Source of the DNA: Candidatus Magasanikbacteria bacterium GW2011_GWA2_56_11
GTDB taxonomy: Bacteria; Patescibacteriota; Patescibacteriia; Magasanikbacterales; UBA922
Direction of reading: 5' to 3'
Assembly (NCBI GenBank): GCA_001004885.1
Contig: LCRX01000013.1
Location: 47,993 to 98,754, forward strand
Length of the DNA stretch: 50,762 nt
Shown here: positions 5,269 to 44,928 of the stretch, one piece after another
Layout of the letters: every line of letters starts with the position of its first letter
How positions within the stretch are numbered: position 1 is the first letter of the stretch
Translations under genes and position numbers: made by a program
Notes under the pieces: model-generated
The model's input: the letters and a program-made list of their open reading frames with translations, nothing else
Databases searched by the model: none
What the model was told of the DNA's origin: nothing

Positions 5269-6982
5269 GTGAAGAACAGTTTGCTGCCTCTGTGGGCGGC
5301 GGTGTGCATGTGCGGCGCTGGATGCGTCGCGTGGCAGCCCCTCGACGAGGAGGGGGCGGTCGTCAGCGGGCCGATCAAGCCCGCGGGTGACCAGTGTGAG
5401 GTCGACTCGCAGTGCCAGCCGAGCGGCAACCCGTGCATGGTCTCGGCGTGCGTCGACAACGTCTGCGCGACCGTGGCCGCGCCGGCCGACACGGCCTGCG
5501 ACGACGCGGACGCCTGCACGGCGGGCGACGTGTGTGTCGGTGGTACCTGCCACGGCACGGCCATCACCTGCGACGACGCGGACGAGTGCACCGACGACAC
5601 GTGCGACCCGGCCACGGGGTGCAAGTTCACGGCCAACACGGTGCCGTGCGATGACGCGGACGCGTGCACGGCGGGCGACACCTGCAAGGACGGCGCGTGC
5701 GTGCCGGGAACGGTCCTTTACGTCGGGTGCTGCACGGCCGATGTCCAGTGCGGGGCTCTTGGCTTCGCGTGGGGCTACAACGTGCCCTGCGCGACGACCC
5801 CGGAGTGCCCGCAGGACATGCAGTGCGTCTCGGGCCAGTGCGTGCCGGCCTTCTACGACGCCGGCTGCACCGTGGACCCGGAGGACACGCCGGCCGACTT
5901 CCTGTCCGGCAAGACCGGCCGGTGCACCACGTGCCGCGACGAGGACGCCAACGGCGTGTGCCTCGCGGTCGAGTTCTTCTGCGCGGAGGGGTTCGACGAC
6001 GACCGGGATCTGCTGGTCGACTGCGACGACCCCGACTGCGCGCTCGACCCCGTCTGCCTGCCCACCTGCACCCCCAACTGCGCGGGCCTCGCGTGCGGCC
6101 CGAACGGCTGCGGCGGAAGCTGCGGCCAATCCGGCCTGCGCGCCGGAGTGCGCCGTCGCGGCCGACTGCGACGACGCGGACGCCTGCACGGCCGACACCT
6201 GCCTCGCCGGCAACTGCCAGAACACGCTCATCGCCGGCTGCAAGGCCTGCGCCGTCGCGACCGACTGCGACGACGCCGACCCCTGCACCACCGACATCTG
6301 CATGGATGGCATGTGCTCGGCGCCGGTTGCGGTCCCCGCCTGCTGCAACAGCAACACCGACTGCGTCGGTGGGACAGTGTGCGTGAACAACACCTGCCAG
6401 GCGCCGACCTGCACGCCGGATTGCACCGGCAAGCAGTGCGGCGACGACGGGTGCGGCGGATCGTGCGGTACGTGCCCGGCCGGTCAGACGTGCACCGCGG
6501 CGGGCCAGTGTGTGCTGGAGATCCCCGAGTGCGCGGTCAACGCGGACTGCCCGCTCAACAACGTCTGCATCGGCGGCAAGTGCTTCCAGGCCGATGGCCA
6601 GCATGACACGGACGGGGATTGTTACTGTGGCGTCGGGAACGCCACCTGCACGGGCTCGATCAACCCGAAGTGCAGCAGCGTTCTGCCGGGAGACTGCGAC
6701 CCGAGCCCCAGTGGCGGGGACGTGTGGTCGCTGTGCCAGGCGGCCGACGGCGCGGTGTACATCGTTACCGCTCCGAACACGTGCCTGACCGGCGGTGTGC
6801 AGATCGGGACCACCGATGGCTCGATCCTCAACAACCCCTCCATGCACGACAAGGTCGGCGACGGCTTCAACAACGACTGCGACGGGCAGACCGATGAGGG
6901 TGGCACCGATCAGTGCCCCTTCGAGTTCCAGGGGACCGCGGGCATCTTCAAGGTGACCTGCGGGTTCTGGTCCAGCCTCTAG
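5269..6982 (+). pseudogene. Cys-rich lipoprotein with MopE-like C-terminus, frameshifted
   Basis: The GTG at 5269 follows TGGAGG by five bases. The N-terminus (KNSLLPLWAAVCMCGAGC) looks like a lipoprotein signal. It is followed by repeated CDDADACTxGDxC and CDPATGCKFTxN units typical of myxobacterial and related secreted proteins. Near 6110-6140 the reading frame changes: the protein runs to GPNGCGGSCG in one frame and resumes as NPACAPECAVAADC in the next. In its second copy of the same motif (SCGTCPAGQTCTAAGQC) the protein has about 15-20 further residues, so bases are probably missing as well as out of frame. The C-terminus carries DGFNNDCDGQTDEG, a MopE-type putative metal-binding motif. 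Base composition is extremely G+C-rich. It may be a true pseudogene or an assembly error. Confidence 0.75.
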
Positions 6983-12208: not shown

Positions 12209-12261
12209 CTAGAGCTTATCTCAAAATTGAGCCGGAAGTTATTTTTGGGAGTAGGCTCTAG
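12209..12261. repeat. Short copy of hairpin-leader family 2
   Basis: The ends CTAGAGC and GCTCTAG are inverted repeats. On the minus strand the body matches the left half of the element at 29684-29848 (CCTACTCCCAAAAATAACTT and then CCGGCTCAATTTTG). It lies four bases after the stop at 12205, between convergent genes. Confidence 0.75.
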
Positions 12262-13800: not shown

Positions 13801-16380
13801 TCACTTGACCAGGGTTACGGCCTTGGCCGTGGCCTTGAGGAGCGGCAACCCCGGGGCGTTCACCCGGAGGTACCGCGCCGACAGGCACAACTGCGCGCTG
13901 CTGCCGGTCGTGGAACAACTGTCCCCCGACCCGCACCCGCCGTACCAGGAGCCGATCGGCTCCCAGTCTTTGGGGGCGGCAAGCGCCGCATACAGGTTGA
14001 GGGTGTTTTCCCCTCCCTGCACCTGGACGGTGACCGTAACCTTCGCGAGGTCCATCGCCTGTCCGAGGTCGACGACGACCTCAGTGCTTCCCGGCGTGGC
14101 CGGGAAGCCCGTGGCCGAGACGACCGGCCCGGGGCAGGTACCGCCGCAGATCAGCTCCTCCGGCGTGCCAAGGCACGCCCCCTCGCTGCAGACATCTCCG
14201 GTCGTGCACCACTCCCCGTCGTCGCAGGGCGCGGTGTTGGGGGTGAACTTACACCCCGTGGCCGGATCGCACGAGTCGTTGGTGCAGGGGTTGCCGTCAT
14301 CGCAGACGATCGACACCCCGCCGCAGTTGCCCGCGGCGCACTTGTCGGTGCTCGTGCACGCGTTGCTGTCGTCGCACGCGGCCCCGTTGGCTTTCGCCGG
14401 ATCCGAGCAGAGCCCGGACTGGGGGTCGCACACGCCAACGGCGTGGCACTGGTCGAGGGCGGTGCAGAGCACCGGATCCCCGCCCAGGCACGCGCCCTGG
14501 TGGCACTGGTCCACCTGGGTGCACGCGTTTGCGTCGTTGCAGAGGGTCCCTTCCGGCTTCTCCGGGTGGGAGCACGCGCCCGTTTTCGGGTCGCAGGCTC
14601 CGGCCTCGTGGCACTGGTCGGGAGCGGCACAGATGGCCGCTTTCCCGCCGGCGCACACGCCCCCGAGGCACATGTCCCCGAGAGTGCAGGCGTTCCCATC
14701 GTCGCAGGGGGTGGAGGGGGGCAGGGCCACGGACTGGCACTTGGTGCCAAGACAGACGTCGACGGTACAGTAGTTGCCGTCGTCGCACTGCGCGTCCGCG
14801 GTGCAGCAGCTCGCGGGCGGTTCGCCCGGCACGCACCCCTTGACCATGTCGCAGGTCTCGAGGCCGTTGCACGGCTTGCCGTCGTCGCACTGGAGGGATG
14901 ATTTACCGGCCGCGCAGGCCCCGTCGTCGCACGCGTCGTTCACGGTGCAGACGTTGTTGTCGGAGCAGGGCGCGGTGTTGGAGGTGAAGATACACCCCTT
15001 GGCCGGATCGCACGCGTCATCGGTGCAGGCATTGCCGTCGTCGCACGACATCTGCTCGCCGGCACAGGCGCCGGACAGGCATTGGTCGTACGCCGTACAG
15101 GCATCGCCATCGTCGCAGTCGGTGCCATCGGCCACTGAGGCCGGATAGCACTGGCCCGACGCCGGGTCGCACGCGGCCGCCGCGCAGGGACCATCGTTCG
15201 CCGTGTTGCAGGCGATGACGGTGGCGGGGTCGGCCACGCACTGGCCGGACACGCAGACGAGCGTGCCGTTGCAGAGGTCCTCGTCCTCGTACTTGACGCA
15301 GTCGGCTTCCAACTGGCAGTCGCACCAGTTGGCGCCGGCGCAGATGCCGGCCGCGCACGTGTCGTTTTCCGTACACGCGTCGCCGTCATCGCACGAGAGC
15401 GAGTTGAAGTCGTTGACGCACCCGGTGCCGGGCACGCAGAGGTCGTCGGTGCACGGGTTGTCGTCGCCACAGGCGGCGGGTTCGCTGTAGATCCAGCAGC
15501 CCGCGTTGTCCTGCTCGCACGCGAGGAGGTTGCCCTCCAGGGTGCAGGCGATTTCGCCCCCGGTGCACTCGTCCTCGCAGCCCGCGTCGGGCAGCGAGTC
15601 CTCGGTCTCGGGGCCGTTGTCCGGCTCCGTGGCCTCGGCGTCCTCGCCGTCGTCAGCGTCTTCGATGCCAGTATCGTCAGTATCGGAGCCCTCGTCGGGC
15701 GGCGGGTCGGCGGTGTCGGCGTCAGGCGTGGGCGGTGGGGTGGTCTCGGCATCATCCGAGTCCCAGGTGTCTCCGGCGTCCGCCGCATCGAGGGGCGGAG
15801 CGCAGCCGGGAACCGTGGTCCACCACGACTGCGCGACCTTCGGGTTACACTCGAGGCACGGGTCGTACCCGTGTTTTTCCCCCGACTTGTACCCGTTGGA
15901 CTCGATGAGGCAGTACGCGGGGTTGACCGCGTACCGGCACTCGTCGGCCTCGCACCAGTCGTCCGTGGCGTCCACACCGTCGCTGCAGGTGTAGGCGCCG
16001 GCCTCGTCGCCGGAGCGGAAGTGGTAGCAACCATCTTCCGTGAGCTCGCAAACCAGGATTCTCTCCTGGTTCACGCACTTCATCTGCCCCGAGACGCACT
16101 GGTTGTCGCAGTCCGCGTCGGCGCCGTTGTCCGGCTCCGCCGCGGCCTCCTGCCCCTCGTCCATCGAGAAGACATCCTGCTGCCCCTCCGCCTCGTCCGC
16201 CTCGTCGGCGCCGCCGTTGTCCGGCTCCTCGCCCTCGGCCTGCGTCTCTCCGGAGTCGTATCTCCGGATGTCGTCCCCCTTCCCCGAGAGGAAGTGGGGG
16301 TTGAGCAGACTGTCGCAGCCGCAGGAGAGGAACGCGAGGAACGCGAAAGAAGCAAAGAAAGCAGTGCTGCGGGTAGCCAT
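13801..16380 (-). CDS. 859-aa Cys-rich repeat lipoprotein
   Basis: The ATG at 16380 follows AAGGAG. The N-terminus (STAFFASFAFLAFLSCGC) looks like a lipoprotein signal ending at a Cys near residue 20-22. Residues about 35-110 and 200-270 are strongly acidic, low-complexity Asp/Glu/Pro linkers. From about residue 290 to 745 there are roughly a dozen cysteine units of the type CDDGNxCTxxDxC followed by CDPATGCxFTxNT. These are typical of secreted proteins of Myxococcota and related phyla. The last ~110 residues (VVVDLGQAMDLAKVTVTVQV onwards, with NLYAALAAPKDWEPIGSWYG) look like a beta-sandwich, possibly galactose-binding-like. Codons are almost entirely G/C-ending. It is homologous in style to the gene at 5269 and is probably a surface-exposed adhesive or structural protein; function not known. 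Confidence 0.85.
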   Translation of the reverse strand: MATRSTAFFASFAFLAFLSCGCDSLLNPHFLSGKGDDIRRYDSGETQAEGEEPDNGGADEADEAEGQQDVFSMDEGQEAAAEPDNGADADCDNQCVSGQMKCVNQERILVCELTEDGCYHFRSGDEAGAYTCSDGVDATDDWCEADECRYAVNPAYCLIESNGYKSGEKHGYDPCLECNPKVAQSWWTTVPGCAPPLDAADAGDTWDSDDAETTPPPTPDADTADPPPDEGSDTDDTGIEDADDGEDAEATEPDNGPETEDSLPDAGCEDECTGGEIACTLEGNLLACEQDNAGCWIYSEPAACGDDNPCTDDLCVPGTGCVNDFNSLSCDDGDACTENDTCAAGICAGANWCDCQLEADCVKYEDEDLCNGTLVCVSGQCVADPATVIACNTANDGPCAAAACDPASGQCYPASVADGTDCDDGDACTAYDQCLSGACAGEQMSCDDGNACTDDACDPAKGCIFTSNTAPCSDNNVCTVNDACDDGACAAGKSSLQCDDGKPCNGLETCDMVKGCVPGEPPASCCTADAQCDDGNYCTVDVCLGTKCQSVALPPSTPCDDGNACTLGDMCLGGVCAGGKAAICAAPDQCHEAGACDPKTGACSHPEKPEGTLCNDANACTQVDQCHQGACLGGDPVLCTALDQCHAVGVCDPQSGLCSDPAKANGAACDDSNACTSTDKCAAGNCGGVSIVCDDGNPCTNDSCDPATGCKFTPNTAPCDDGEWCTTGDVCSEGACLGTPEELICGGTCPGPVVSATGFPATPGSTEVVVDLGQAMDLAKVTVTVQVQGGENTLNLYAALAAPKDWEPIGSWYGGCGSGDSCSTTGSSAQLCLSARYLRVNAPGLPLLKATAKAVTLVK

Positions 16381-18592: not shown

Positions 18593-18751
18593 GAATTGAT
18601 AGTGAGTTATTAGCAATTCTCTTTTCTAAGTTGAACCGAAACATATATACTGATTTTCGCGGCCCCAATGTCTGAGCCCACAAGAGCGAGTTTTGGTGCC
18701 GCGAAAATCAGTCTATGTTTGAGGCGAAAAGGGGAAACTCGCTGTGAGTTC
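18593..18751 (-). repeat. Hairpin-leader element, copy A
   Basis: Read on the minus strand the element starts GAACTCACAGCGAGTTTCCC and ends ...GCTAATAACTCACTATCAATTC, 50 bp before the ATG at 18543. Its core is a long stem (AACATAGACTGATTTTCGCG and its complement, slightly diverged here) around a 24-nt loop. The loop orientation is the same as in copies C and D. TATAAT (18757-18752) abuts its 5' end. Confidence 0.9.
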
Positions 18752-19498: not shown

Positions 19499-19562
19499 GC
19501 CAGCCCTATCAGACTATATTTGTATACAATATTGTATACAAATATAGTCTGATAGGGCTGGC
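19499..19562. repeat. Perfect 64-bp palindrome
   Basis: The left half begins GCCAGCCCTATCAGACTATA and the right half is its exact complement with no spacer. Pairing continues outward (CAAGC/GCTTG) after a two-base bulge. The centre (19518-19543) is ATTTGTATA-N8-TATACAAAT. The palindrome lies between the HTH gene and the sigma-factor gene. Confidence 0.9.
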
Positions 19563-25821: not shown

Positions 25822-25850
25822 TTGCCGGTAGCCGGAGCGCGTGTTATACT
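25822..25850 (+). promoter_or_regulatory. Promoter feeding leader copy B
   Basis: TTGCCG (25822-25827), 17 bp, TATACT (25845-25850). The predicted start is about six bases before the element. The same hexamers and spacing precede the family 2 leader at 29854-29882. Confidence 0.65.
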
Positions 25851-25862
25851 GGTACAATTATG

Positions 25863-26018
25863 AACTCACAGCGAGTTCCCCCCCCTTTCGCCTCAAACAG
25901 AGACTGATTTTCACGGCCCCAATGTCCTAGCCTATAAGAGCGAGTTTTGGTGCCGTAAAAATCAGTCTATGTTCCGGCTCAACTTAGGGTAGAATTGCTA
26001 ATAACTCACTACCAGTTC
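25863..26018 (+). repeat. Hairpin-leader element, copy B, with inverted loop
   Basis: The flanks match copies C and D (GAACTCACAGCGAGTT start, GCTAATAACTCACTACCAGTTC-like end), but the 24-nt loop is the reverse complement of theirs. In the stem a G:C pair of the other copies is A:T here (CGCGG/CCGCG versus CACGG/CCGTA). It ends 22 bp before the ATG at 26041. Confidence 0.9.
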
Positions 26019-26040
26019 TATGCTTTTCACTAGGACTATG

Positions 26041-29683: not shown

Positions 29684-29848
29684 CTAGAACCTACTCCCAA
29701 AAATAACTTCCGGCTCAATTTTGGCCTGTTTCGGCTGCCAATTGTCCGGCTCTCGTCGCCATAGTACCACTAGCCTGCTCAACCCGGACAATTTTCGCTC
29801 GAAACAGGCACAAAATTGCCTCGGAATTATTTTTGGGAGTAGGTTCTG
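29684..29848 (-). repeat. Hairpin-leader element, family 2
   Basis: The outer arms are perfect over 21 bp (AGAACCTACTCCCAAAAATA..., 29686-29706 with 29827-29847). Pairing continues with small interruptions through CAATTTTG, GCCTGTTTCG and AATTGTCCGG to a loop near 29755-29788, so nearly the whole element folds on itself. On the minus strand it sits between a promoter (29854-29882) and the ATG at 29669, 15 bp away. Confidence 0.85.
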
Positions 29849-36870: not shown

Positions 36871-37026
36871 AAACTCACAGCGAGTTTCCCCCCTTTCGCC
36901 TCAAACATAGACTGATTTTCGCGGCCCCAAAACTCGCTCTTACAGGCTCAGACATTAGGGGCGCGAAAATCAGTCTATGTTTCGGCTCAACTTAGAGTAG
37001 AATTGCTAATAACTCACTGTCAGTTC
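36871..37026 (+). repeat. Hairpin-leader element, copy C
   Basis: It has the same flanks, stem (AACATAGACTGATTTTCGCG and its complement) and loop orientation as copies A and D. It ends eight bases before the ATG at 37035, heading a six-gene run. Confidence 0.9.
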
Positions 37027-44770: not shown

Positions 44771-44928
44771 GAACTCACAGCGAGTTTCCACCTTTTCGCC
44801 TCAAACATAGACTGATTTTCGCGGCACCAAAACTCGCTCTTACAGGCTCAGACATTGGCGCCGCGAAAATCAGTCTATGTTTCGGCTCGACTTAGAAAAG
44901 AGAATTGCTAATAACTCACTACCAGTTC
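44771..44928 (+). repeat. Hairpin-leader element, copy D
   Basis: The stem arms at 44804-44830 and 44855-44881 pair over 27 bp with one mismatch, around a 24-nt loop. The ends are GAACT and AGTTC. The element stops 21 bp before the ATG at 44950. Confidence 0.9.

Follow-up and report, generated by a model that had tools for sequence, protein, structure and literature searches.

Recurrent loop inversion in a hairpin-bearing MITE family of Candidatus Magasanikbacteria, probably by template switching

In the window analysed here, the whole 50,762-nucleotide stretch of the Candidatus Magasanikbacteria contig, one of four copies of a short hairpin-bearing element has its loop inverted, and flipped loops recur in other copies of the same family elsewhere in the genome. 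The element, designated MITE-A, is a MITE of about 156 bp and not a leader-RNA family. The explanation we favour, with a probability of roughly three in four for the whole, is that MITE-A is a non-autonomous derivative of an IS5-family insertion sequence with an extra hairpin, and that the flips are best fitted by recurrent template switching at this hairpin ("minute inversion"), the replication step being one that we infer.

The inverted loop of copy 2

MITE-A copy 2 (25862-26018, plus strand) lies before a TPR gene and carries the flipped loop (R), reading CC-AATGTCCTAGCCTATAAGAGCGAGTTTT-GG in the alignment, where copies 1 (18593-18751, minus strand), 3 (36871-37026, plus strand) and 4 (44771-44928, plus strand) have the normal loop (F) and read CC-AAAACTCGCTCTTACAGGCTCAGACATT-GG or a near variant. 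The copy 2 block CCAATGTCCTAGCCTATAAGAGCGAGTTTTGG thus stands opposite CCAAAACTCGCTCTTACAGGCTCAGACATTGG or near variants in the other window copies, and its reverse complement agrees with the common form at 29 of 32 positions, far beyond chance. Both flanks are in the usual orientation and the inversion is limited to the loop block, so that the alignment bears out the first-pass annotation, which had described the 24-nt loop as reverse-complemented relative to the other three copies, with outer flanks that are not inverted.

All features of copy 2 are given on the plus strand unless stated otherwise. The inverted block, CCAA-loop-TTGG, extends at most over 25919-25950 and contains the 24-nt unpaired loop (25923-25946); it is enclosed by the left stem arm AACAGAGACTGATTTTCACGGC (25896-25917) and the right stem arm GCCGTAAAAATCAGTCTATGTT (25952-25973). 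The element ends in the left terminal inverted repeat GAACTCACAGCGAGTT (25862-25877) and the right one (26003-26018), which reads GAACTGGTAGTGAGTT on the minus strand, and is flanked by the 3-bp target duplication TAT (25859-25861 and 26019-26021). A -10-like box, TATACT (25845-25850), lies in host DNA, ending 11 bp before the left end and thus outside the flipped segment. A compensatory change in the stem had also been proposed; one G:C pair is indeed A:T in copy 2, but the same stem contains C·A and G·A mismatches. Where most copies have CG/CG, copy 2 has CA/TA, the neighbouring C:G having become C·A, and a further T:A pair is G·A (CAGAG/CTATG). These are two mismatches in the 21-bp stem, against a family range of 0-4 and a median of 1.

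Elsewhere in the window, a perfect 32-bp inverted repeat whose arms have no loop between them was observed at 19499-19562, and Cys/Asp-rich repeats occur at 5497-6298 and 14274-15472 in large ORFs on opposite strands, their mutual similarity appearing as an inverted match.

MITE-A and its IS5-family relatives

MITE-A is short and non-coding and carries a near-perfect hairpin with arms of about 21 bp around a 24-nt loop; about 46 dispersed copies with the loop adjoin some 40 unrelated loci. A search of the genome (1.25 Mb, 23 contigs) gave about 40 copies, which pattern searches raised to this number, and the analysis drew on the stretches surrounding these matches. The ends are 16-bp terminal inverted repeats, GAACTSAYAGYGAGTT, with 42+47 matches genome-wide compared with 0+1 for the control. 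Exact 3-bp duplications flank 29 of 40 copies, whereas re-pairing the flanks between copies gave a mean of 3.6 and did not exceed 12 in any of 10000 trials. Terminal repeats and target duplications together with the dispersed copies identify a MITE in place of the "hairpin leader" of the first-pass annotation, and the Rfam covariance models gave no match to it. In addition, one locus (L056, G000:C9:6361-6680) holds a member of a second family, MITE-B, nested within MITE-A, and two MITE-A copies (L059 and L060) are truncated at almost the same site of the right arm (GCCGTAAAAAT).

No MITE-A copy was found by DNA similarity in 58 relatives, though the terminal repeat is present in some, and the loop has no homologue in GTDB species genomes or viral contigs. 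The parent element was traced through genomes of the same family that have the same terminal repeat. In one of these (G027), an insertion sequence (L091:1702-2669) with the target duplication TTT/TTT has the same ends as MITE-A; its transposase is split over two frames and matches PF13340, PF13586 and NF033580 (IS5 family), scoring below the NCBIfam equivalog cut-off because of the frame split. The left end of MITE-A is also found in G042, G037, G060, G017, G420 and one Peregrinibacteria contig. A transposase of this type, including DDE_Tnp_1, was not detected in the own genome, the related autonomous elements having been found in other genomes; it may have been lost or may lie in a contig gap. 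As a separate observation, the relative G035 contains other MITEs of 215-300 bp (L073-L082) with the same terminal repeat and a different interior.

When placed in F orientation, the MITE-A loop can be aligned with the inner part of the IS left end, where the C-terminus of the transposase is encoded (combined shuffle p of 0.017, as opposed to 0.94 for R), and this alignment gives modest polarity. As F is also the majority form (41 versus 5 copies), it is probably the ancestral orientation and R the derived one. MITE-A resembles IS5-family insertion sequences of the NF033580 group and their MITEs in transposase family, shared terminal repeats and short target duplications, but differs from them in its terminal repeat, its hairpin insert and its apparently fixed distance from -10 boxes; no description of these three features was found in the literature searched.

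Recurrence of the flipped loop

Copy 2 is not unique, as flipped loops were identified in 5 of the approximately 46 genomic copies (C13:73855, which is copy 2, C7:33605, C2:21587, C14:73940 and C7:4357). Four loop haplotypes, at scattered positions of the tree, are represented among the five R copies, and variants seen in R loops are matched by F loops: L070 is L030 reversed, L040 is close to L036 reversed, and the loop of L068 is the main F loop reversed. In a tree built from the non-loop sequence, the R label requires five changes, and one origin appeared in 0% of bootstrap trees; constraining the R copies to a single clade comes at a cost of 30 log units (AU p of 0.04, which is marginal, and tree support is low). 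A single origin of all flipped copies is thereby disfavoured, and four independent flips are a fair estimate, although not a proof, with the counts resting on one draft assembly of 23 contigs. Some exchange between copies is indicated by L040, a mosaic whose left part resembles L039 and whose right part and loop resemble those of L069, and gene conversion could spread loops, so that independent flips could number fewer than four. The R copies carry further private mutations, and the flips consequently appear to be old.

An assembly artefact in a repeated element is scarcely credible: the assembly is a draft in 23 contigs and the copies are alike, but the flips occupy five loci with four different haplotypes, and exact 3-bp duplications are present at four of these loci.

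The unrelated palindromic family MITE-B, with about 15 full genomic copies that are mostly flanked by TA, is represented in the window by a copy with a normal loop (29687-29846, plus strand) and also occurs at 12222-12261. One of its 15 copies (L138) has a loop flipped relative to the arms, with loop scores of 3 versus 18 and arm scores of 73 versus 57.

Arm correction and the mechanism of inversion

Stem mismatches total 47 over the family and 73 when arms are re-paired between copies, a count as low as the former being obtained in 0 of 5000 shuffles, and left and right arm states covary within copies (p of 0.0006 at the CG site and 0.011 at the T/G site). These data support the earlier suggestion to the extent that stems are kept paired more often than expected by chance, whether by arm-to-arm copying or by selection. 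In 10 of 40 copies, a templated change from CCTCAAAC to CCGAAAC lengthens the stem; the two arms of L035 carry corresponding 2-nt insertions, and L067 has several compensated pairs. Under a template-switch model, stems should become longer, compensatory changes should be multiple and loops should be inverted in full (PMC8794818), and the stem extension, paired insertion, compensated pairs and inverted loops of MITE-A match these expected footprints.

The breakpoints provide a further indication. Four of the five R copies share with the commonest F form a C/T at the position bordering CCAA/TTGG, which wider breakpoints would have turned into A/G; in most flipped copies, the breakpoints therefore probably fall inside the 4 bp next to the loop (CCAA/TTGG). 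Such a location is easier to reconcile with template switching than with a crossover between long arms. The first-pass annotation had invoked recombination across the arms; their link to recurrent flipping stands, while the inner breakpoints favour template switching. A possible exception is L068, where the A/C stem asymmetry is what a G/T copy would show after being flipped at a distal breakpoint; arm recombination could also produce such a breakpoint.

Under the template-switching explanation, the hairpin arms would allow the replicating polymerase to switch to the complementary strand and then return. A jump spanning the loop would invert it, whereas a jump inside the arms would copy one arm onto the other and yield compensatory pairs and stem extension. 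The flip would then be a rare, probably neutral mutation and not a regulated switch. Selection on an RNA stem could contribute to the pairing, but it would leave the orientation of the loops unchanged.

Comparable events are known from the chloroplast trnH-psbA region, where recurrent flipping affects a loop of 25-27 bp enclosed by arms of 18 bp (PMC2903610). These minute inversions (PMC2903610; Kelchner and Wendel 1996, cited there) resemble those of MITE-A in loop length (about 25 nt), arm length (about 18 bp) and homoplasy, but MITE-A is a bacterial transposon family that offers dozens of parallel copies in one genome as replicates. Template switches in RNA hairpins, including those of bacterial rRNA, likewise leave inverted loops, compensatory pairs and stem extension (PMC8794818); the inverted rRNA loops are typically of 4 nt, with some of 7-8 nt, whereas those of MITE-A are of 24-28 nt and lie in a transposon.

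The strongest competitor, itself unlikely, is homologous recombination or gene conversion between oppositely aligned MITE copies, with the palindromic arms leading to an inverted loop. Both the mosaic L040 and the asymmetry of L068 would suit it, but it mostly needs crossovers or very short conversion tracts that end inside 4 bp, and on its own it leaves the stem extension and paired insertions unexplained.

Recombination between the arms of a single copy, site-specific or homologous, would make the loop a phase-variation switch for the downstream genes, as had been proposed for the glycan genes that the window copies precede. The inverted arms of about 21 bp and the presence of one serine and three tyrosine recombinases in the genome are compatible with this idea, but it is highly improbable: the -10 box at 25845-25850 lies outside the flipped 25919-25950, the breakpoints within 4 bp speak against it (the C/T mismatch beside CCAA being unflipped in four of the five R copies), MITE-A adjoins many unrelated genes, the F and R forms give one and the same central hairpin on folding, the R loops have private mutations, and MITE-B, with unrelated arms, flips as well. 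A dedicated invertase was likewise rejected, since no shared recombinase site is visible between the arms of MITE-A and MITE-B. Invertons and phase-variable promoters are similar to MITE-A in that both orientations of a DNA segment flanked by inverted repeats are found; however, the MITE-A segment has no promoter, no dedicated invertase was identified for it, its breakpoints are short, and its flips are seemingly old and fixed.

It is just as improbable that MITE-A is a structured leader RNA acting in cis, with selected stem pairing and loop orientation as a functional variant. Both forms give much more stable folds than shuffled sequences (z of -5 and -8), and the element sits between promoter and gene, with the right-hand gene co-directional in 35 of 40 cases by a simple ORF rule; however, a DNA-level palindrome is expected to give a hairpin anyway, the downstream genes are unrelated, and the terminal repeats, the target duplications, the missing Rfam match and the absence from 58 relatives all argue against it.

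Insertion next to promoters

A TATAAT-like box (at least 5 of 6 matches to TATAAT, 4-20 bp upstream) precedes the left end of 25 of 43 MITE-A copies, and in 22 of these it lies at 10-13 bp, where 1.2 are expected from the flanking sequence; such a box adjoins the right end in 6 of 40 copies. In the relatives, seven of eight IS-type left ends have a box at 8-13 bp; the left end of G420 also has one, at 12 bp, and the Peregrinibacteria copy has none. It seems somewhat more probable than the reverse that active promoters are recognised by this IS5-family lineage and its MITEs, perhaps through the open complex, with insertion at a fixed distance of about 10-13 bp past the -10 box (near +5) and mostly in one orientation. 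MITE-A would thereby come to sit between promoter and gene, its left end mostly toward the promoter. The narrow spacing and the inclusion of the IS make target choice likelier than selection alone. If this is true, the captured promoter is antisense to the transposase in the IS, and the MITE gives dozens of genes a hairpin 5' UTR. A literature search for promoter-targeting IS of this kind, or for MITEs in Patescibacteria, found nothing relevant, which is not proof of novelty.

Implications

Inverted loops and seemingly compensatory changes are not necessarily signs of RNA function or phase variation, and the fixed spacing from -10 boxes points to a promoter-targeting transposase. With dozens of copies of one hairpin in a single genome, the MITE-A family is a natural replicate experiment on bacterial hairpin mutagenesis, which shows directly how often loop inversion and arm correction occur and where their breakpoints lie.
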